Below are positions 1 through 38,484 of a DNA stretch of 38,484 nt, one piece after another. The notes beneath the pieces are model-generated. The model saw only the letters and a program-made list of their open reading frames with translations, searched no databases and was not told the DNA's origin. Made by a program: the position numbers and the translations under genes. Positions within the stretch are counted from its first letter, which is position 1. Every line of letters starts with the position of its first letter. Source of the DNA: Aromatoleum evansii (GTDB lineage: Bacteria > Pseudomonadota > Gammaproteobacteria > Burkholderiales > Rhodocyclaceae); assembly GCF_012910805.1 (NCBI RefSeq), contig NZ_WTVK01000052.1:1-38484 (forward strand), written 5' to 3'.

Positions 1-1040
1 ACGCCGCCCCGCGCAAGCTGGTCTTCATCCTCGTCGACGGCATGGGCGATATGTTTCTGCAGCGTACCGGCGCCGGCGGGAGTCTCCTGACGCACCGGAC
101 GGATCGCCTCACCTCGGTGTTCCCCAGCACGACTGCGAGTGCCGTCACCTGCACGATGACGGGCCTCGCACCCGCACGCCACGGCCTGACGGGCTGGTTC
201 ATCCGCGACCGGCGCTTCGGCGGCGTCATTGCGCCGCTGCCCGCCATCCAGCGCGGCGGCGCCCCGCTGCGGGGTCCGCTGGCAGTCCCCCGGCTATTCG
301 CCTATCGCACGCTTTTCCAGCGCCGCAAACGTCCTGCAATCTTCGTCTCGCCCCAGGATCTGGCATTTTCGCCCTACTCGCGGCGCCATAGCCGCGGAGC
401 AAGCACGCTGGGCTACAAGGGCCTGCAGGGGATGATAGACACGATCGTGGGGGCGATCCGGGGGAACGCGAACCACCCCGTTCTCGTCCATGCCTACTAC
501 CCGACCTTCGACGGACTCAGCCACGCCTACGGCTGCAACTCGGCGGAGGTCGTCACGCACTTCGGGCGCATCGACGCGGCCTTCGGGCAACTTCTTGAAC
601 GGCTGCAGGGGAGCGGTACCGACGTCGTCCTCACGGCCGATCACGGCTTCATCGACTCGCCACCGGAACGCGTGATCGAACTGACGACCCTGCCCGAACT
701 GCAGACCATGCTGAGCACACCCCTGTTCGGCGAACGGCGTACCGCCTTTTGCGCCGTGCGCCATGGAGCGGAGCGCGATTTCGAGCTCCTGGCACGCGAA
801 TGCCTGACGGGCAAGGCGACCGTCGCGCGCTCGGACGACCTGATCGGCCTCGGCCTCTTCGGTCCGGGCAAGCCGCATCGGCGATTGCGGGAGCGGATCG
901 GGACGCATGCACTGCTGATGGAGTCGGGCTGGACGATTCGCGACCACGTTCCGGGCGAGCAGGAACACGCGATGATAGGCGTGCACGGCGGGCTCTCGCC
1001 CGACGAGATGTGGATCCCGCTGATCCAGGCGCACTGCTGA
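1..1040 (+). CDS. Alkaline-phosphatase-superfamily phosphodiesterase/pyrophosphatase, 5' truncated by window edge
   Basis: The reading frame is already open at base 3 and reads KLVFILVDGMGD before the first internal ATG at 42, so the gene starts upstream of the window. The VDGMGD metal-binding Asp, a Thr-rich stretch (FPSTTASAVTCTMTG) holding the presumed nucleophile, the LTADHGFID Asp-His pair and a late VHGG histidine follow the order of metal ligands in nucleotide pyrophosphatase/phosphodiesterase type enzymes. These hydrolyse phosphate mono- or diesters with two divalent metals. The substrate cannot be told from the sequence. It ends 24 bases from the convergent DUF1178 gene. I am confident of the superfamily and not of the exact activity. 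Confidence 0.8.
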   Translation, partial: AAPRKLVFILVDGMGDMFLQRTGAGGSLLTHRTDRLTSVFPSTTASAVTCTMTGLAPARHGLTGWFIRDRRFGGVIAPLPAIQRGGAPLRGPLAVPRLFAYRTLFQRRKRPAIFVSPQDLAFSPYSRRHSRGASTLGYKGLQGMIDTIVGAIRGNANHPVLVHAYYPTFDGLSHAYGCNSAEVVTHFGRIDAAFGQLLERLQGSGTDVVLTADHGFIDSPPERVIELTTLPELQTMLSTPLFGERRTAFCAVRHGAERDFELLARECLTGKATVARSDDLIGLGLFGPGKPHRRLRERIGTHALLMESGWTIRDHVPGEQEHAMIGVHGGLSPDEMWIPLIQAHC

Positions 1041-1064
1041 CGACCATCCGGCGCGCGCGCCCTC

Positions 1065-1520
1065 TCAGTGCAGATCCTCGTCCGCCGGCAGCGGCAGCAC
1101 GGCGATGCCCTCGTCGATCAGCTCGCTAACGTCGTCGCGCGTGGCGCGGCCGCGAATGTTGCGCGCCTCGCTCTCGCCATGATGGATGCGACGCGCTTCG
1201 TCGGCAAAGCGCTCTCCCACATCCTCCGACTCGCGCCCGAGACGACGCAGCATCGCCACCGCCGCCGCAACCGCATCGGGGGCTGCCGGGGCCGCTCGCG
1301 CCGTTCCCGCACCGACATGAGAGCCGGATCTTGTCACCGGCACCGGGGCCGACGCCCCTGTATTCACGTACGGCGCGCTGGGACGCCGCGAAATCGTGGT
1401 CGATCCGCACACCGGACAGGACACCAGTCCGCGCTTGCGCTGCTCGTCGTAAGCGGCCGACGAGGCAAACCAGCCCTCGAACAGGTGCTCTTGGTCGCAG
1501 CTGAGGTTGAGAACGATCAC
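1065..1520 (-). CDS. DUF1178 family protein
   Basis: A 151-residue protein of unknown function. It begins IVLNLSC and continues HLFEGWFAS, the conserved opening of DUF1178 proteins, with a CPVCGS motif (C35, C38) that together with C8 could bind zinc. A low-complexity Ala/Pro/Val linker covers roughly residues 60-85 and is followed by a charged helical end with GESEARNIRG. I chose the GTG at 1520 because family members start directly before the IVFxL strand. An ATG at 1550 would add ten residues of non-conserved sequence. A GGAA lies a few bases upstream of the GTG. It is the last gene of the minus-strand block, after tRNA-Leu. Family assignment is firm; function is unknown. Confidence 0.85.
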   Translation of the reverse strand: MIVLNLSCDQEHLFEGWFASSAAYDEQRKRGLVSCPVCGSTTISRRPSAPYVNTGASAPVPVTRSGSHVGAGTARAAPAAPDAVAAAVAMLRRLGRESEDVGERFADEARRIHHGESEARNIRGRATRDDVSELIDEGIAVLPLPADEDLH

Positions 1521-1563
1521 GTGGAATTCCGGACTGGGGCAAGAACGCATGCCCGTTGTCGCG

Positions 1564-1648
1564 TGGTGCCGGGAACGGGGGTCGAACCCGTACGCCCAAG
1601 GGCTGCAGATTTTAAGTCTGCTGTGTCTACCGATTTCACCATCCCGGC
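1564..1648 (-). tRNA. tRNA-Leu (anticodon UAA)
   Basis: On the minus strand an 85-base class-II tRNA folds. The acceptor stem GCCGGGA (5' end at 1648) pairs with TCCCGGC, and an encoded CCA ends at 1564. The anticodon stem GCAGA/TCTGC encloses loop CTTAAAA, giving anticodon TAA (complement at 1612-1614). The T arm carries GGTTCGAACCC, and a long variable arm lies between the anticodon and T arms, as expected for tRNA-Leu. It sits between pgsA (upstream, 47 bases) and the DUF1178 gene and may be processed from their shared transcript; no separate promoter is obvious. Confidence 0.97.
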
Positions 1649-1695
1649 CCGCGAGGGCTGGGCATTCTACCGCGCGACGATGCCCCTGCCCAGCA

Positions 1696-2286
1696 TCAGC
1701 CGGTACGCCGCGCCTTGCTTCCGTCGTTCGCCAGATGGGGCATCGCGCGATGCAGGTAATAGCCCATGGACCACAGCGTCAGCGCCGCCGCGATGTAGAT
1801 GAGGATCTCGCCGAACAGCCGGACGTTCAGGTTGAAGAGCGGTGCGTCATACAGCAGGAGGGGAATCGCGGTCATCTGCGCCGCGGTCTTGAGCTTGCCG
1901 ACGAACGCCACCGCCACGCCCGCCGACTCCCCGATGCGCGCCATCCATTCGCGCAACGCGGAAATCGTGATCTCGCGCCCGATGATCACCACCGCGATGA
2001 TCGAATCGACCCGCGCGAGCTGAACGAGCAGGATCAGCGCCGCCGCAACCATCAGCTTGTCGGCGACGGGGTCGAGAAAGGCGCCGAAGGCCGAAGTCTG
2101 GTTCAGCGCGCGCGCCAGATAACCGTCGAACCAGTCCGTCACCGCCGCAACGATAAAGATCAGGGTCGCGGCAAGATTCTTTTCCTGCGCATCGAGCCAT
2201 TGTTCCGGAAGGTAAAAAACGCCGACAAAGAGCGGTATCAGGGCGATGCGCGCCCAGGTCAGCGAGTTCGGAATGTTGATCTGCAT
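1696..2286 (-). CDS. pgsA: CDP-diacylglycerol--glycerol-3-phosphate 3-phosphatidyltransferase
   Basis: An integral membrane enzyme of 196 residues that transfers phosphatidyl from CDP-diacylglycerol to glycerol-3-phosphate, the committed step to phosphatidylglycerol. The CDP-alcohol phosphotransferase signature DG-x2-AR-x8-G-x3-D-x3-D is complete (D54, G55, A58, R59, G68, D72, D76). Several hydrophobic segments surround it (about 7-26, 38-50, 77-90, 95-103, 157-175). The N-terminus NIPNSLTWARI is characteristic of PgsA rather than of phosphatidylserine synthase. It follows uvrC by 33 bases in the same direction, the uvrC-pgsA arrangement known from many proteobacteria, and precedes tRNA-Leu. 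Confidence 0.95.
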   Translation of the reverse strand: MQINIPNSLTWARIALIPLFVGVFYLPEQWLDAQEKNLAATLIFIVAAVTDWFDGYLARALNQTSAFGAFLDPVADKLMVAAALILLVQLARVDSIIAVVIIGREITISALREWMARIGESAGVAVAFVGKLKTAAQMTAIPLLLYDAPLFNLNVRLFGEILIYIAAALTLWSMGYYLHRAMPHLANDGSKARRTG

Positions 2287-2319
2287 TGAAAAGATGACGG
2301 AATTGCGACAATTGCATGG

Positions 2320-31321: not shown

Positions 31322-33379
31322 TCACGCCGCCCCGTGCTGATCCGCGCCAAACGCGCGCTGACGCAGCCGGAACAGCTCATCGCGGGCAGCTGCAGCCTTT
31401 TCGAATTCGAGGTTGCGCGCGTGCTCCTGCATCTCCTTCTCAAGCTTGCGGATCGCCTTCGCAACGGCCTTCTCGTCCATCGCAAAATATTCGGCCCGTG
31501 CCTCTTGCGCCACCATCGCATTGCGCTCGTCGCTGCTCGAATAGACGCCGTCGATGATGTCCTTGATGCGCTTGCTCACGGTCTTCGGGACGATACCGTG
31601 CTCGGTGTTGAACGCGAGCTGCTTCGCCCGACGCCGATCCGTCTCATCCATTGCCGCACGCATCGAGCGCGTCACCACGTCCGCATACAGGATGGCACTG
31701 CCGTGGATATGCCGCGCAGCCCGCCCGATGGTCTGGATCAGCGAGCGCTCGGAACGCAGAAAGCCTTCCTTGTCGGCATCCAGAATCGCCACGAGCGACA
31801 CCTCGGGAATATCCAGGCCTTCGCGCAGCAAGTTGATGCCCACCAGCACATCGAACTCCCCGAGACGCAAGTCGCGGATGATCTCGACACGCTCGACGGT
31901 ATCGATATCCGAATGCAGATAGCGCACGCGGATGCCGTTCTCGGCAAGGTAATCGGTAAGGTCTTCGGCCATCCGCTTCGTCAGCGTCGTAACCAGCACG
32001 CGTTCGCCCGCGGCGATGCGGCGCTTGGCCTCGGACAGCAGATCATCGACCTGCGTGCTCGCGGGCCGCACTTCGACGGCGGGGTCGATCAGCCCCGTCG
32101 GACGCACGACCTGCTCGACCACCTGCCCCTGATGCGTCGCCTCGTAGTCTGCCGGCGTGGCCGAAACAAAGATTGTCTGCGGCATCAGGCGCTCGAACTC
32201 CTCGAACTTCAGCGGCCGATTATCGAGTGCCGACGGCAGGCGGAAGCCGTATTCGACAAGGTTCTCCTTGCGCGAACGGTCGCCCTTGTACATGCCCCCC
32301 ACCTGCGGAATCGCCACGTGGGATTCGTCGACGAACAGCAAGGCATCCGGCGGCAGATAGTCAATCAGCGTCGGCGGCGGTTCGCCCGGCCCGCGCCCCG
32401 ACAAATGGCGCGAGTAGTTTTCGATGCCCTTGCAGAAACCCATCTCGTTGAGCATTTCCAGATCGAAACGCGTGCGCTGCTCGATACGTTGCGCCTCGAC
32501 CAGCTTGGCCGAGCGCTGAAAGTAGCTGACACGATCCCGCAGTTCCTCCTTGATGGCCTCGATCGCCTGCAGCACCGTAGCGCGCGGCGTGACGTAGTGG
32601 CTGGAGGGGTAAACGGTGAAGCGGACGAGCTTTTGCTTCATGTGCCCGGTAAGAGGATCGAACAGCGTGAGATGTTCGATCTCGTCGTCGAACATCTCGA
32701 TCCGCACCGCATACTCGGCATTCTCCGCCGGAAATACGTCGATGACGTCACCGCGGACGCGGAACGTTCCCCGTCGGAAGTCGATGTCGGAGCGCGTGTA
32801 CTGCATCGCCACGAGCCGCTGCACGAGGTCGCGATGCGCGATCCGCTCGCCTTCGCGCAGATGCAGGATCATCGCGTGGTAATCGACCGGATCGCCGATA
32901 CCGTAGATGCACGACACCGTCGCGACGATCACGACGTCTCGCCGCTCCATCAGGCTCTTCGTCGCCGACAGGCGCATCTGCTCGATGTGCTCGTTGATGC
33001 TCGAATCCTTCTCGATGAACAGATCGCGCGACGGCACATAGGCTTCCGGCTGATAGTAATCGTAGTAGGAGACGAAGTACTCGACCGCATTCTCGGGGAA
33101 AAACTCCCGGAATTCGGCGTACAGCTGCGCGGCGAGCGTCTTGTTCGGCGCCAGTACCAAGGCGGGCCTGCCACAGCGCGCGATCACGTTCGCCATCGTG
33201 TAGGTCTTGCCCGAGCCGGTCACGCCGAGCAGGGTCTGGAACATCAAGCCGTCCGACACGCCCTCGGTCAGCAGATCGATCGCGACCGGCTGATCGCCGG
33301 CGGGCGCGAAGGGCTGATGGAGCCTGAAAGGGCTCCCTTCGAAAGTGACCACCGGAACACTGTCCGTCGTACTCGTCAT
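31322..33379 (-). CDS. uvrB: Excinuclease ABC subunit B
   Basis: DNA-damage-verifying helicase-like subunit of nucleotide excision repair; 685 residues. Walker A GVTGSGKT (52-59), the [15 protein letters not shown] hairpin that clamps the damaged strand, Walker-B-type [11 protein letters not shown], motif VI region [12 protein letters not shown], and the C-terminal UVR motif [16 protein letters not shown] that binds UvrC are all present. Start set at ATG 33379 (MTSTTDS); the frame is open for 25 more codons upstream. The 171 bases shared with the divergent aminotransferase contain no recognisable LexA box (CTG-N10-CAG), so SOS control is not evident. Confidence 0.98.
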
Positions 33380-33550
33380 GCTAGAATTTCCGGCTTGTTT
33401 CAAGCGCTTGCCCGGCTGCCGCAACCGATCGGACAGGACTTGGCAAACGCGCATTATTTCGCAAAATGCGGCTCAAGGCACGGCTGATGGACCGGCACCC
33501 ACGCGACAGGTTCAGTCCACCGCGCCTCCCGCGCAACCTGGAGTTGTTTT

Positions 33551-34759
33551 ATGCCCGCTTCGATCTTCGCCGCCGTCGAGATGGCGCCCCGTGACCCGAT
33601 CCTCGGACTGAACGAGGCTTTCAACACCGATGCGCGCACCGACAAGGTGAACCTCGGTGTCGGCGTCTACTACGACGACAACGGCAAGATTCCGCTGCTC
33701 GCAGCCGTCAAGACGGCCGAAAAGGCGCGCCTCGAAGCCATGCCGCCGCGCGGCTACCAGCCGATCGAAGGCCCCGCCGCATACAACACCGCCGTGCAGA
33801 ACCTGCTCTTCGGCAAGGATTCGCACCTCATCGCCAATGGCCAGGTCGTCACCGTCCAGGCGCTGGGCGGCACCGGCGCCCTGAAGGTCGGCGCCGACTA
33901 CCTCAAGCGTCTGCTCCCCGGCGCGACCGTATACATCTCCGATCCCAGCTGGGAAAACCACCGCGCGCTGTTCGAGTCCGCCGGCTTCCCGGTCGAGAAC
34001 TACCCGTACTACGAACCGAGCACCCGCGGCGTGAATTTCGCCGGCATGAAGGCCAAGCTCGAGCAGCTTGCCCCAGGCTCCGTCGTCGTGCTCCACGCCT
34101 GCTGCCATAACCCGACCGGCGCCGACCTGACCGAAGCGCAGTGGAGCGAAGTCGTCGACGCCTGCCGCGAACGCGCCCTCGTACCCTTCCTCGACATGGC
34201 CTATCAGGGCTTCGCCGACGGCATCGAGCCGGACGCCGTTGCCGTGCGCCTGTTCTCGGCAAGTGGCCTGCAGTTTTTCGTTTCGAGTTCGTTCTCGAAA
34301 TCGTTCTCGCTCTACGGCGAGCGTGTTGGCGCTCTCTCCATCGTCACCGCAAGCAAGGACGAGTCGGCCCGCGTGCTGTCGCAGGTCAAGCGCGTGATTC
34401 GCACCAACTACTCCAACCCGCCGATCCACGGTGGTGCCGTCGTCGCCGCCGTGCTGAACTCGGCCGAACTGCGCCAGATGTGGGAAGACGAACTGGCCGG
34501 CATGCGCGACCGCATCCGCTCGATGCGTACCGGGCTGGTCGAGAACCTGAAGGCTGCCGGCGTCGCGCAGGACTTCTCGTTCGTAATCCAGCAGCGCGGC
34601 ATGTTCTCCTACACCGGCCTGTCGGCCGCTCAGGTCGAACAGCTGAAGAACGACTTCGGCATCTACGCCGTGTCGACCGGCCGCATCTGCCTCGCGGCCC
34701 TTAATTCGCGCAACATCGGCTACGTCGCCAAGGCGATCGCCGAAGTCGTGAAGGCCTGA
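33551..34759 (+). CDS. Class-I aspartate/aromatic aminotransferase
   Basis: PLP-dependent aminotransferase of 402 residues in the AspC/TyrB group. Landmarks: KVNLGVGVYYDDNGKIP, GGTGALKVGADYL, SDPSWENHRALFESAGF, HACCHNPTGADLT, D215 and Y218 in FLDMAYQGF, the Schiff-base lysine K250 in SSSFSKSFSLYGERVG, and the substrate-carboxylate Arg in STGRICLA. It probably makes aspartate, tyrosine or phenylalanine from the keto acids; the choice between aspC and tyrB is not secure. The ATG at 33551 is preceded by GGAG. Divergent from uvrB, as in many betaproteobacteria. Confidence 0.95.
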   Translation: MPASIFAAVEMAPRDPILGLNEAFNTDARTDKVNLGVGVYYDDNGKIPLLAAVKTAEKARLEAMPPRGYQPIEGPAAYNTAVQNLLFGKDSHLIANGQVVTVQALGGTGALKVGADYLKRLLPGATVYISDPSWENHRALFESAGFPVENYPYYEPSTRGVNFAGMKAKLEQLAPGSVVVLHACCHNPTGADLTEAQWSEVVDACRERALVPFLDMAYQGFADGIEPDAVAVRLFSASGLQFFVSSSFSKSFSLYGERVGALSIVTASKDESARVLSQVKRVIRTNYSNPPIHGGAVVAAVLNSAELRQMWEDELAGMRDRIRSMRTGLVENLKAAGVAQDFSFVIQQRGMFSYTGLSAAQVEQLKNDFGIYAVSTGRICLAALNSRNIGYVAKAIAEVVKA

Positions 34760-34778
34760 GAATTTCGCGCAAGCGATA

Positions 34779-34807
34779 TTGACGCATAGCCGCGCGCTAC
34801 CTATAAT
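34779..34807 (+). promoter_or_regulatory. Consensus promoter of tandem tRNA-Asn genes
   Basis: TTGACG (34779-34784), 17-base spacer, perfect TATAAT (34802-34807). The tRNA begins 12 bases further on. The following GCGCGGC is a GC-rich discriminator of the kind associated with stringent (ppGpp/DksA) control of stable RNA genes. Confidence 0.88.
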
Positions 34808-34819
34808 GCGCGGCTCCAT

Positions 34820-34895
34820 TCCCCGATAGCTCAGTCGGTAGAGCAACGGACTGTTAATCCGTGTGTCCCTGGTTCGAGCCCAGGTCGGGGAGCCA
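34820..34895 (+). tRNA. tRNA-Asn (anticodon GUU), copy 1
   Basis: 76 bases with encoded CCA. Acceptor TCCCCGA pairs with TCGGGGA, discriminator G; D arm AGCTCAGTCGGTAGAGC; anticodon stem CGGAC/GTGTG region with loop CTGTTAA, anticodon GTT at 34853-34855; T arm with GGTTCGAGCC. It is identical to copy 2, 119 bases downstream. Confidence 0.98.
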
Positions 34896-34938
34896 GAATT
34901 CGGCTCCTGCAGTATTTCAGCATGAGCACCAGTACCGA

Positions 34939-35014
34939 TCCCCGATAGCTCAGTCGGTAGAGCAACGGACTGTTAATCCGTGTGTCCCTGGTTCGAGCCC
35001 AGGTCGGGGAGCCA
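34939..35014 (+). tRNA. tRNA-Asn (anticodon GUU), copy 2
   Basis: A base-for-base duplicate of copy 1, anticodon GTT at 34972-34974, encoded CCA at 35012-35014. The 43-base spacer has no promoter, so both are probably cut from one precursor ending at the hairpin just downstream. Confidence 0.98.
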
Positions 35015-35022
35015 GTAAAGGT

Positions 35023-35065
35023 AAGCAGATGGGCCACCTCTCGGGGTGGCCCATCTGCTTTGTGA
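35023..35065 (+). terminator. Terminator of tRNA-Asn operon
   Basis: A 16-bp perfect stem, AAGCAGATGGGCCACC (35023-35038) with its complement at 35045-35060, six-base loop, followed by only a few Ts (TGTGATG). The stem is very stable although the T-run is poor. It marks the end of the conserved core before the accessory region. Confidence 0.75.
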
Positions 35066-35309
35066 TGCGCCGTCTGGTGCATCTCTGGTCCCGGTTTTGC
35101 GGCGGCAAGGGCTCATCACCATTCATCGCCCGCCGCACTCAGCCCATCACGGCGCTGCAGGGACCGCCCCGGCTCTCACCTTCATCGCGGCAGCGCGGCC
35201 GCCTCACCGGCGCCACTGGCCCTACATCGAGACCCGAATCGAGGCGCCCTCACCTCCTCGCCACGTCAGGTCCATCGCCGGTTGGCGGCGGGGCATTGCG
35301 TTGCCCGGC

Positions 35310-35537
35310 CTACGTCAGGACGCTCAACACTTGCTCGGCGCGAAAGCCATCGCGAAGCATTCGCGTGGCGACAACACCCCGCTCGATCGCCGTGAGGCTG
35401 CGCGCTGCCACCTTGCCGGCTACAAGCCTACCTGCAAGCACCATCGCCTCGATGCGGTCGGTCGTCTGGACCAGGGTCTGGAAGTGGCTGCGAGGGCGAC
35501 GGCCGGCGCCATCTCCGTTCAATATTGCGTATCTCAT
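35310..35537 (-). CDS. Hypothetical 75-residue protein
   Basis: I do not recognise this protein. It starts at ATG 35537 with AGGAGG exactly five bases upstream, one of the clearest ribosome-binding sites in the window, which is the main reason to accept it. The 75 residues are basic (many Arg) with two probable helices: DRIEAMVLAGRLVAGKVA and a C-terminal RDGFRAEQVLSVLT; there is no signal peptide or membrane segment. An upstream extension of the frame to 35696 has a poor composition and was not used. It lies between the tRNA-Asn terminator and the nuclease gene, and nothing visible ties it to either. The 244 bases between it and the terminator show no further feature. Confidence 0.55.
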   Translation of the reverse strand: MRYAILNGDGAGRRPRSHFQTLVQTTDRIEAMVLAGRLVAGKVAARSLTAIERGVVATRMLRDGFRAEQVLSVLT

Positions 35538-35871
35538 GACAGCCTCCTGCGACCACTGCAGCGCATCTGTTGCCGCTTCAGTGTCTACACGAGTGAAATA
35601 TCGGCACCCACGCCCGCTTCTTGAGACCGCTCGACGACTGCTTTCGGGGGGCGGCCTGAACTTCCGCCGCCGGCCAGAAACGGTCAGTGAGCACATCTTA
35701 GTGACTGACTACTTCAGGCTGAACGGGGTCATTCGCCGCAAGCAGTCACTGCGAATGTCGAGTTCGTTAACCGACATTCAACCTCCCGCGGCATTTGGAC
35801 CCAGACCGCCTTGAACTGAAACGCATCCCGGTGGGCGGCCCGCTGATTCGCACGGCCTAGACTGCGAGAGC
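35538..35871. other. Intergenic stretch with alternative dyad symmetries
   Basis: 334 bases without a credible gene. The section near 35730-35779 contains two overlapping inverted repeats: CATTCGC (35730-35736) with GCGAATG (35751-35757), and GAATGTCG (35753-35760) with CGACATTC (35772-35779). They share GAATG, so only one can form at a time. The remaining sequence, read on the minus strand (for example CTGACCGTTTCTGGCCG), looks like degenerate intergenic repeat material to me, but I cannot confirm this. Confidence 0.5.
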
Positions 35872-37479
35872 TCAGAAGGCGCCCGTGTTGAAGCGATACT
35901 TGGCTTGGTCTTCCGTGATGCCTCGCGTTTCGGCGATATAGAGAATCGCCTGACGCTTCGACCGGAACTCACGGCCATCGACCATTACCGGGTGTTGGGA
36001 GTGCTTGTAAGAAGTGGCGGCCAGGGGCGCGGCTATGGCTTGCTCCACAGACATGCCCTGCTGGTTGATGCGGTTCTTCAGCGTGCTTACGCCGATGCCA
36101 TGTGCTCTGGCTACAGCAGTCAACGAGGGGTAGCTGACCCCGTTAACCGTGAGCTCCTTGCCATGCACCCTCTCGATCTTGGTTTGGGTGTTGACCCATT
36201 CGAAGTTGCCGGGACCCCAGGGCTCATTAGGTCGCTTCCGGACCAACTCCATGTCGGCCGGCACAGGTGATACATCGGCCTTGAAGCTGTCATAGTTGCC
36301 GACCCACTCGGCCACAACAGCGTCAGCGTGCCGTTTTTGCATCGATTTCCAGCGTCGGAATAGGTCAGAACCGGCTTCTGGATGCCAGCTACGTTGCCGT
36401 ACCTTATCTGCCTCCGGGAGGGGCAGGCCTTTCTGGAGCCGGGTGCGAATGACATGCTTCGCCATGCCGAGGCGCGGACTCAGCACATCGGCTGCTTCCT
36501 CGATGGACCGAAACTTCTCGTCTCCATACTGTACGATCTTGCCGCCCGGACTTCCTAGACCACCGGGCTTGGCTGTATTGAGACCCTGAGGCCCTAGCGC
36601 ACCCAGACGCTCAACCCAGACGGCTTCACGGGCTGGCAGCAAGAGGGGGTCCATGATGCCGGTTTCGAGGGCATCAATATCGAATCCCGCGGCTCCGTCC
36701 TCGCGGATCGCCATATGGAGCTTCGATGTCGACCCCTCAGTTGCTCTGCGCACATGAAAGGCCCAACGCTGTTCGACCGAAGTCACTGTAAGGCCGACAT
36801 ACACGGCGCCGGTTTTGCGGCGTATGACGCGATAGATCGAACCGGACCGGTGACTGGCGAAGGCCGTAGGAACTGAAAGCGCGTCGTCAAGGTTCCAGCC
36901 GGCCTTCAGTCGAGACCAAACCAGCGCGCGGTCTTCGTACCTGCTCAGCGTGTGCAGCAATGCCGCAACGCTGTGAAAGTGCTTACCTGACTGCTCGGGA
37001 TACTCGTCGCCGTCATAGACGAAGCCTTTGCGACGACCACCGCCGTAAAAGCTCCGCCAGGTTGCCGCCGGCAGGGTCAAAGCATGCGAGAGGGTGTCGC
37101 CAGAGAGTTCGTTGCCTTTCGCCAGTGCACGCACACGCTGCCAGAAGTTTCGATAGTCCACCACCGCTTCTGTAGAACGAGCCGAGTAGTAGGCCTGTAC
37201 GTCGGTCGACTGTCCATCAATTTCGACCATAGTGCGGCGTACTCCGTACTTACGCCTGAACTCATCCGCAGTGAGCCAAAGGGCTTCGTCGATGTTTTCC
37301 GAGGAAAGCGAGCCGGCCTTGACCAGGCGCAGAAATCGGGCGCTGAACGTGGCGAGTGACACTGAGGGCGCACGCTCTGTAGACCAATAGATGCTGGCCG
37401 GGCCCGCATGGTCCTTGCCCCCATACCTGACGACATCAGGTGCCTTCGAATTGCTAGGTCGCCGCCCAGAAACCATCAT
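35872..37479 (-). CDS. GIY-YIG nuclease with repeated HTH-like modules and HNH/AP2-like segment
   Basis: 535 residues. A GIY-YIG nuclease domain lies in the middle (about 213-302): SIYRVI with Y216, AVYVG with Y227 and G229, catalytic-type R238 in EQRWAFH, E290 in VWVERLGAL, and a GLN turn at N301. Around it are repeated modules of the pattern aromatic-x-S-x3-A, a turn, R-x2-x-G, and a closing A-x2-P: about 168-204, 323-356 and 450-485 are clear; 40-70, 108-137 and 505-531 are degenerate. Residues about 377-433 (W-x-S-F, D-x4-P, GPGNFEWVN) resemble the core of phage HNH/AP2 DNA-binding modules, without the usual Cys/His. A mobile or defensive endonuclease is plausible. Starts ATG 37479 or 37476. 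Codon use is visibly less GC-rich than the core genes. Confidence 0.85.
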   Translation of the reverse strand: MMVSGRRPSNSKAPDVVRYGGKDHAGPASIYWSTERAPSVSLATFSARFLRLVKAGSLSSENIDEALWLTADEFRRKYGVRRTMVEIDGQSTDVQAYYSARSTEAVVDYRNFWQRVRALAKGNELSGDTLSHALTLPAATWRSFYGGGRRKGFVYDGDEYPEQSGKHFHSVAALLHTLSRYEDRALVWSRLKAGWNLDDALSVPTAFASHRSGSIYRVIRRKTGAVYVGLTVTSVEQRWAFHVRRATEGSTSKLHMAIREDGAAGFDIDALETGIMDPLLLPAREAVWVERLGALGPQGLNTAKPGGLGSPGGKIVQYGDEKFRSIEEAADVLSPRLGMAKHVIRTRLQKGLPLPEADKVRQRSWHPEAGSDLFRRWKSMQKRHADAVVAEWVGNYDSFKADVSPVPADMELVRKRPNEPWGPGNFEWVNTQTKIERVHGKELTVNGVSYPSLTAVARAHGIGVSTLKNRINQQGMSVEQAIAAPLAATSYKHSQHPVMVDGREFRSKRQAILYIAETRGITEDQAKYRFNTGAF

Positions 37480-37510
37480 CCCCCCAAGGTTGCGTTCTAT
37501 AACGCTACGT

Positions 37511-37612
37511 CATGGTACAGAGAACGGGCTATGACTGCTTCCCGCCATGCAACGCGCTCTAGGGGTTCAATCGCGAATGGCCGCAACCGCTGCAAAGCAG
37601 TCATAGACCATG
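37511..37612. repeat. Interrupted inverted repeat upstream of the nuclease gene
   Basis: CTATGACTGCTT (37529-37540) and its perfect complement AAGCAGTCATAG (37595-37606) are separated by 54 bases. Outside them CATGG (37511-37515) and CCATG (37608-37612) are also inverted. The element lies 32-133 bases before the nuclease start codon, where an operator, a recombination site or a leader hairpin could sit. The surrounding 297 bases hold no convincing gene. Confidence 0.7.
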
Positions 37613-37718
37613 CTCAGTCCGATGTCCGTTCTGGGTCGTCAGTCCCCGTTCACCCTTTTGAGAAGCAGCCGCTCGACCGCCCGAGTGAGGATCTCCCGCG
37701 AACAACCGATTGACCCGC

Positions 37719-37741
37719 CCCGGGCTGACGCTCAGCCCGGG
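37719..37741. repeat. Short perfect hairpin (10-bp stem)
   Basis: CCCGGGCTGA (37719-37728), loop CGC, TCAGCCCGGG (37732-37741). It is a strong dyad without a T-run on either strand, 35 bases before the next gene's start. It may be a factor-independent pause, an operator or an mRNA leader structure. Confidence 0.65.
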
Positions 37742-37776
37742 TCGCCATCTCAATCCCCCGTCGCTGGAGCCTCCTC

Positions 37777-38202
37777 ATGTCCGCCCTCCTCCGCCCGTCC
37801 GATGCTGTCTCCGAAACCGCGCTGCAGAACTGCCTCGACAGCGTTCTGTGGTCGCTGCGCACGCAGACCAACGCGATGTCCGTCCTGCGCCTGTCGCAGG
37901 AGGAACTCAACACCAAGGTAAACGCCTCGTACAACGCGGCGCTTGAACTGGCCGAGTTGTGCAAGATGCTCGAACTCGATCACGCGACCCGCACGTTGCG
38001 CGAGTCCATTACCGATGGCGCCCTCGCTCGCGCCCGGATCGCGCTGGCTGCGCACCCGAGGATCGTATCCGAGCTCCTTTGGCTCGAAGAGATCGACTTC
38101 AGCCGCGTGGCGCCGATTTCGCCGATCGACGCTGACGAGATCAACCGCATGCGTCCCGACCATGCGGAGCAGATTCGTCGGTTTCGCTGGCTGCGGGCGT
38201 AA
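37777..38202 (+). CDS. Hypothetical 141-residue helical protein
   Basis: Unrecognised. Begins at ATG 37777 with GGAG ten bases upstream. The protein is soluble and almost entirely helical by composition: a Ser/Thr/Leu-rich N-terminal helix (LQNCLDSVLWSLRTQTNAM), NASYNAALELAELCKMLELD, and a C-terminal part with DADEINRMRPDHAEQIRRF. It has two cysteines and no known motif. Strong codon bias and a good terminator behind it (38257-38291) support a real gene. The setting among orphan genes suggests a mobile-element or phage-derived locus, without direct proof. Confidence 0.75.
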   Translation: MSALLRPSDAVSETALQNCLDSVLWSLRTQTNAMSVLRLSQEELNTKVNASYNAALELAELCKMLELDHATRTLRESITDGALARARIALAAHPRIVSELLWLEEIDFSRVAPISPIDADEINRMRPDHAEQIRRFRWLRA

Positions 38203-38231
38203 CAGCCCTCCCCCTCACCTCCATATTATTT

Positions 38232-38291
38232 CTGTGGTCCGTTTCGGCCACCACAGGGCCCCGTCAGGCATCGCGCCTGCCGGGGCCTTTT
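38232..38291 (+). terminator. Tandem hairpins ending the 141-residue gene
   Basis: The first hairpin is CTGTGGT (38232-38238) with ACCACAG (38250-38256). Immediately after it, GGCCCCGTCAGGC (38257-38269) pairs at 12 of 13 positions with GCCTGCCGGGGCC (38275-38287), five-base loop, then TTTT. The second hairpin is a good intrinsic terminator 55 bases after the stop codon. Confidence 0.8.
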
Positions 38292-38326
38292 CCGTTCACG
38301 CACTCATTGAGGGGAGCGATGTTTTC

Positions 38327-38470
38327 ATGTTGTCCAGCGTATTGTCCAAGGCGGCCCTGGCCGTTGTGCCTGCTGCGGGCGGGCCCGTGGCGGCTGTTCT
38401 CGTGCCCGCGCTCGCGGCCGTGATCTCGAGCCGCCAGTTCGAGATCGATCTTCGTATCGTGGTGCGTTAG
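38327..38470 (+). CDS. Possible small hydrophobic protein (47 residues)
   Basis: ATG 38327 opens a short frame ending TAG at 38470. The product has a hydrophobic Ala/Val/Pro-rich centre (about residues 9-32, ALAVVPAAGGPVAAVLVPAL inside it), preceded by a single Lys and followed by a charged RQFEIDLRIVVR tail, the outline of a single-pass membrane peptide. GGGGAG lies ten bases upstream, somewhat far. The amino-acid composition is partly what high GC content produces by chance, so I list it at low confidence. The frame lies beyond a terminator, so it would need its own promoter. Confidence 0.35.
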   Translation: MLSSVLSKAALAVVPAAGGPVAAVLVPALAAVISSRQFEIDLRIVVR

Positions 38471-38484
38471 CCGCACCCCACCCT

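Follow-up and report, generated by a model that had tools for sequence, protein, structure and literature searches.

The stretch of DNA analysed here, 38,484 nucleotides of Aromatoleum evansii (contig NZ_WTVK01000052.1, positions 1 to 38,484; the window), carries near its end a 535-codon frame on the minus strand (35872-37479), which is certainly coding, because relatives match the encoded protein over most of its length. The 535-residue product is probably a DNA-cutting protein and kin to the homing nucleases of bacterial viruses. The reading that we favour, at somewhat better than even confidence, is that of a GIY-YIG endonuclease of homing type, free-standing, whose gene is cargo of an integrative island inserted in a tRNA-Asn gene and lies at one end of that island. 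Its architecture arranges familiar parts in an uncommon order. The initial annotation had seen in it an undescribed system, a claim that is not supported: relatives are annotated as 'GIY-YIG nuclease family protein', the homing endonuclease profile PHROG 314 aligns with it, and a protein of the phage BcepSaruman is laid out similarly.

The homing reading is favoured because the protein unites the fold and residues of I-TevI with matches to homing profiles and with modules on both sides of the nuclease, because the modules of a repeat-rich relative match NUMOD1 and I-TevI_DNA-bd and a phage relative adjoins thymidylate synthase, and because relatives are spread patchily over plasmids and islands, with nuclease and recombinase genes of Cereibacter sharing a sharp-ended block of 2.9 kb. 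It is mainly as homing endonucleases that proteins joining a GIY-YIG fold to helix-turn-helix (HTH) modules are known. The DNA binding, DNA cutting, target and homing that we infer for the 535-residue protein would work as follows. A long DNA site would be bound by the modules on either side of the nuclease, together with a degenerate HNH-like block, and the one GIY-YIG domain in the middle would introduce a nick or a cut within that site or next to it. Repair from a copy already bearing the gene would then spread the gene or its element. The gene and its proposed parts, with model confidence given as predicted local distance difference test (pLDDT), are:

35872-37479, minus strand: gene of the 535-residue protein, an open frame.
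37234-37431, minus strand: possible first N-terminal hairpin-HTH module, residues 17-82, of low confidence (weak model secondary structure, pLDDT mostly below 62).
37030-37233, minus strand: possible second N-terminal module, residues 83-150, of low confidence (weak model secondary structure, pLDDT below 50).
36865-37029, minus strand: likely third module, residues 151-205 (module profile match).
36562-36849, minus strand: GIY-YIG domain, residues 211-306, with Y216, Y227, R238, E285 and N301 (model, fold matches and conservation).
36424-36537, minus strand: likely fourth module, residues 315-352 (module profile match; hairpin and helices in the models).
36160-36372, minus strand: degenerate HNH-like block, residues 370-440 (PHROG 3377; modelled strand, strand and helix; no histidine in 395-438).
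36022-36156, minus strand: fifth module, residues 442-486 (module profile match).
35881-35991, minus strand: likely sixth module, residues 497-533 (modelled hairpin and two helices, pLDDT 75-86 over 501-530).

The GIY-YIG domain starts near residue 211, and about 210 residues of other material precede it, in line with the central position proposed in the initial annotation. In a model of residues 150-362 the block means of pLDDT are 88-98 over residues 210-299, so that the fold expected for residues 213-302 is indeed predicted, and the modelled domain superposes on the catalytic domain of I-TevI (Foldseek and VIA; 1mk0/1ln0). The VIA matches are confined to model residues 62-157, and the modules were therefore barely tested in this comparison. 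As to the catalytic pattern that had been proposed, the two tyrosines, R238 and N301 stand, Y216, Y227, R238 and N301 being identical in all rows of an 8-row alignment, but E290 does not: position 290 varies across the aligned rows, whereas residue 285 is E in 5/5 rows of a closer alignment and E (24/46) or Q (22/46) in every row of a wider one, so that E285 is taken as the conserved acidic residue. In the wider alignment the R238 column holds R in 16 rows, S in 1 and a gap in 29. Glutamine at the column expected for the catalytic glutamate may either be a genuine variation among phage GIY-YIG proteins or arise from the alignment. The 535-residue protein has the features of the GIY-YIG superfamily, namely the fold together with two Tyr, Arg, Glu and Asn. 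It matches the PHROG homing endonuclease profiles 314, 19446 and 7168, the first of which, 574 positions long, places the nuclease at around position 180, as well as the NCBIfam group I intron endonuclease model (E 1.1e-6, under the model cut-off). Its only PADLOC match is a weak one to a homing endonuclease model (E 0.0025), and a search of PDB sequences gave only rows at chance level.

To trace the modules, twelve repeat units were combined in a profile; six come from a protein of genome G214, where they lie behind the nuclease, and six from a protein of genome G137, in which the nuclease has three units on each side. Residues 443-482 (40.7 bits, E 6.5e-14), 183-203 (11.4 bits) and 317-351 (9.5 bits) score above the best domain in 1000 shuffled sequences (6.5 bits), and the module boundary pattern noticed earlier thus belongs to a real repeat. 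Residues 498-511 reach 1.0 bits, under the best shuffle, and in two Cereibacter relatives the last unit scores 7.8 and 5.4 bits. Resting on two sequences, the full-length model is of low quality (mean pLDDT 50), and secondary structure alone was taken from it; at this low confidence it has a hairpin and two helices at 498-532 and a hairpin plus helix at 17-78 and 85-145. On the profile scores and the low-confidence model, one of the six proposed modules is graded as certain, three as likely and two as only suggested. Both repeat profile and models agree with the earlier view that modules lie on either side of a single GIY-YIG domain. The units of the G214 protein match Pfam NUMOD1 (2e-11) and I-TevI_DNA-bd (6e-11). 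Compared with the PDB, the repeat profile finds designed repeat proteins in its top rows, which match the tail of the unit only, and I-TevI (1i3j) at E 0.18, a hint rather than proof; one repeat unit alone found no match in the PDB. Very regular repeats are seen in the products of L015:4350-5720(-) and L014:4344-5915(-), three before and three behind the nuclease in the one and six behind it in the other.

In a comparison of 27 units taken from ten proteins, the aromatic residue at position 8 is F or Y in all, R32 is kept in 25/27 and A43 in 23/24, and positions 25-27, 30, 31, 34 and 36 carry 3.1-3.4 bits. It would be attractive to regard the unit of about 43 residues as a natural, rearrangeable DNA-reading module, with a constant scaffold, variable positions in and around the second HTH helix, and runs of up to six units behind or flanking one GIY-YIG cutter; we consider this improbable. 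The variable positions need not mark the reading of bases, since hairpin positions 4 and 7 and position 17 are as variable as the helix positions.

Behind the nuclease, residues 388-503 match PHROG 3377 'HNH endonuclease' (E 6.7e-13), and a strand, a strand and a helix are modelled at 411-439 (pLDDT 56-71). Residues 395-438 hold no histidine, and the catalytic first His of an HNH endonuclease is thus missing, for which reason the block probably binds rather than cuts. The HNH/AP2-like segment of the initial annotation is in this way retained in its HNH-like half; the four matches that Pfam gives up to E = 1 include no AP2 family, although a diverged domain could escape such a search.

With respect to the order of parts, the protein has the GIY-YIG fold and conserved residues in common with I-TevI and the orthodox GIY-YIG homing endonucleases described in the accessible text of PMC1564403, and like these it has HTH-type DNA-binding modules and lacks housekeeping domains. 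In contrast, the orthodox enzymes carry their modules fused C-terminally, whereas about 210 residues with modules precede the nuclease here; the I-TevI-type order of an N-terminal nuclease followed by NUMOD modules is replaced by an internal nuclease with modules on both sides, an HNH-like block stands behind it, and there is no intron. An internal nuclease recurs in the G137 protein, in plasmid proteins of Tolypothrix and Calothrix and in phage BcepSaruman. The GIY-YIG endonuclease of this Burkholderia phage (357 residues), whose gene adjoins thymidylate synthase, matches residues 183-421 (BLASTP E 2e-10) and has its nuclease at 136-215, preceded by one module (81-121) and followed by two (239-274, 300-339). 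This layout is like that of the 535-residue protein, but the phage protein is shorter, has fewer modules and gives no PHROG 3377 match beyond its module part. The Tolypothrix and Calothrix proteins (522 and 897 residues) have an internal nuclease (302-389) that follows two modules and precedes an HNH-like block; they differ in that zinc-finger-like units (DUF4379 and DUF723 matches) replace the N-terminal modules. No description of a module-flanked internal GIY-YIG domain was found in the literature, searched mainly as openly readable text without figures.

Relatives over most of the length of the protein are encoded on Cereibacter plasmids (residues 87-528, 32-33% identity, E 2e-52 to 8e-50; at least 80% query coverage in 3/8 matching plasmid records) and in G778, a genome of the same class, whose 498-residue relative has 30% identity (E 6.6e-62, profile positions 50-470). 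Both share the HNH-like PHROG 3377 match with the 535-residue protein and differ from it by a shorter, diverged N-terminal part. A contig of Luteovulum azotoformans repeats one of the Cereibacter proteins (99.9% to locus L002). Two otherwise different Cereibacter plasmids share a 2.9-kb block (L002:3424-6349 and L003:3429-6349) of 90% identity with sharp ends, which holds a serine recombinase gene and, divergently, the GIY-YIG gene. Because the limits of the block fall near the 3' ends of both genes in L002 (the nuclease frame of L003 is about 76 bases longer), recombinase and nuclease look as if they had moved together as a cassette. Serine recombinases also occur at a distance of 1.2 kb in G778 and, in Skermanella, at 0.9 kb from a shorter relative; as none is annotated in the stretches around the cyanobacterial relatives, a constant link is not upheld.

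Otherwise the gene is rare. The 535-residue protein found no relative in 60 related genomes besides its own, 16 congeners included, nor did the G778 protein in the 59 related genomes of G778. Profile A2 found relatives in 2/398 other genomes of an order sample (the nuclease part only in both), in 2/397 of a phylum sample (most of the length in G778, the nuclease part in G651) and in 1/368 of a class sample (G1180, from the nuclease onward), these samples overlapping. Scans of viral contigs with the protein and with profile A2 gave no confirmed relative; in phages, tblastn listed nothing at 1e-5, and at a limit of 1 it gave one record at 4e-6, the matches listed (40 of 238 records) covering mainly the nuclease region. 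In G1180 (L152) a relative of cyanobacterial type is split over two frames of 330 and 209 residues, apparently a broken gene.

The surroundings of the gene bear on its mobility. Its G+C content by codon position is 63, 49 and 67%, and the third-position value, compared with 78-87% in three core genes of the window, fits acquired DNA. The features on this side are:

34939-35014, plus strand: second tRNA-Asn gene, island attachment site on this side (ARAGORN; its last 51 bases recur on contig C267).
35062-38484, no strand: strain-specific DNA on the island side, cut at the contig end (congener alignments end at about 35014-35065).
37529-37606, no strand: 12-base inverted repeat with 54 bases between its arms, 50 bases upstream of the gene (repeat search).
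37777-38202, plus strand: island gene for 141 residues, without assigned function (lone genomic counterpart on C267).

Two tandem tRNA-Asn genes end the DNA shared with congeners, and over 37480-38484 only a 52-base match was found, in 1/16 congeners. The last 51 bases of the tRNA gene recur exactly on contig C267 (31330-31280), and the DNA after that repeat is the normal downstream neighbour in congeners, of which 8/16 align over the full 4.1 kb (best 88%). Because the tRNA end recurs in this way before the normal downstream DNA, the tRNA-Asn gene is taken to house an integrative element that carries the nuclease gene at one of its ends, and the window contig and C267 are presumably the two ends of one element. 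Beyond its repeat C267 encodes a tyrosine integrase and a DUF2130 protein (Pfam) and matches two PADLOC candidates, PDC-M09B (gene L066:5328-7837(-)) and PDC-M09A (gene 1013-2308(-)). These two genes, a TerB-like gene (L066:7840-8223) and the one for DUF2130 lie close to what is presumably the far end of the island. The gene at 37777-38202 has its lone other genomic match, a distant one, on C267 (39808-40146, E 4.6e-6) and none in 60 other genomes. A 1118-residue island protein of C267 (L066:9259-12615(-)) has no match in Pfam, PHROGs or PDB sequences; going by its motifs, it may be akin to DNA polymerases of family B.

The inverted repeat upstream of the nuclease gene (arms 37529-37540 and 37595-37606) is unique at this spacing in its own genome, and its region folds better than 197 of 200 shuffles. 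Its 8-base core is also inverted at 35636 and 35740, beyond the other end of the gene, and occurs 4 times in 3.6 kb, against a single copy over the window's first 34.9 kb. The repeat could be an operator or an element end. No intron RNA family was matched within 33000-38484, as the initial annotation had supposed, and a location in a group I intron was not found; this does not exclude a homing mechanism, as free-standing homing genes are known.

Several observations weigh against a homing endonuclease. The whole island is missing in congeners, which thus offer no empty site for the gene alone, and of 181 plasmid records resembling the Cereibacter stretch, the 30 that were listed include none with both flanks but no gene. 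The Pfam GIY-YIG match lies under the family cut-off, and NUMOD1 and I-TevI_DNA-bd have no match in the protein itself up to E = 1, so that NUMOD domains, for which a search had been suggested, were not recovered there. Viral relatives of a cyanobacterial GIY-YIG domain, a set biased by that query, start their match before residue 60 in 80/80 cases and have the same module type behind it in only 3/80, and a viral protein with several such repeats likewise has its nuclease first (26-114). In addition, the ratio of nonsynonymous to synonymous substitutions between two Cereibacter alleles is 0.49 (486 codons), and constraint is therefore weak. The last value, together with the already degenerate HNH-like block and the unique inverted repeat that precedes the start codon by 50 bases, would suit a DNA-binding regulator or an otherwise degenerate nuclease, whose modules bind an operator such as this repeat and whose cutting is weak or lost; I-TevI represses its own gene (accessible text of PMC3943268). 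The retention of Y216, Y227, R238 and N301 in all eight rows and of E285 in all five of the closer set speaks against it, and we hold this explanation to be improbable.

Use in restriction or in defence had also been suggested, neither being the best-supported reading. As a homing-type nuclease used in defence, the protein would protect host or island by cutting phages, plasmids or rival islands on entry, where these bear its site or modified bases; this is unlikely yet comes second in our ranking. The GIY-YIG defence enzymes PD-T4-3 and CMoRE, which depend on 5-hydroxymethylcytosine, have an N-terminal nuclease and a C-terminal modification-sensing domain (accessible text of PMC12923530), and their fold match to the 535-residue protein is much weaker than that of I-TevI. 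An endonuclease of a restriction-modification system whose methylase went unseen is very improbable: no methylase family occurs among the 7 window and 10 C267 proteins scanned (Pfam), the contig stopping at 38484, the annotated surroundings of two Cereibacter relatives contain none, and a module array would suit a long rather than a short site. Our order of preference is thus a homing-type nuclease, then defence, then a regulator or degenerate nuclease, and last restriction-modification.

A homing-type protein, it seems, can have its nuclease amid its binding modules. The window gene, the Cereibacter plasmids, the genome G778 of the same class, the cyanobacterial plasmids and one phage form a small, scattered set in which number and order of modules may be compared. 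Bacterial members of the homing endonuclease cluster lie mostly in or near mobile elements, and none was then found in Alphaproteobacteria, according to the accessible text of PMC1564403; the Cereibacter proteins would fill this gap if they are true homing enzymes. Units that read DNA independently would allow target sites to be deduced from them, and if each unit reads its own few bases, such proteins would be modular nucleases with long targets set by unit order, the island gene being a guard or mobiliser whose target is set in this way. If the gene guards its island, it would be one more homing-type nuclease recruited to the conflicts of mobile elements.
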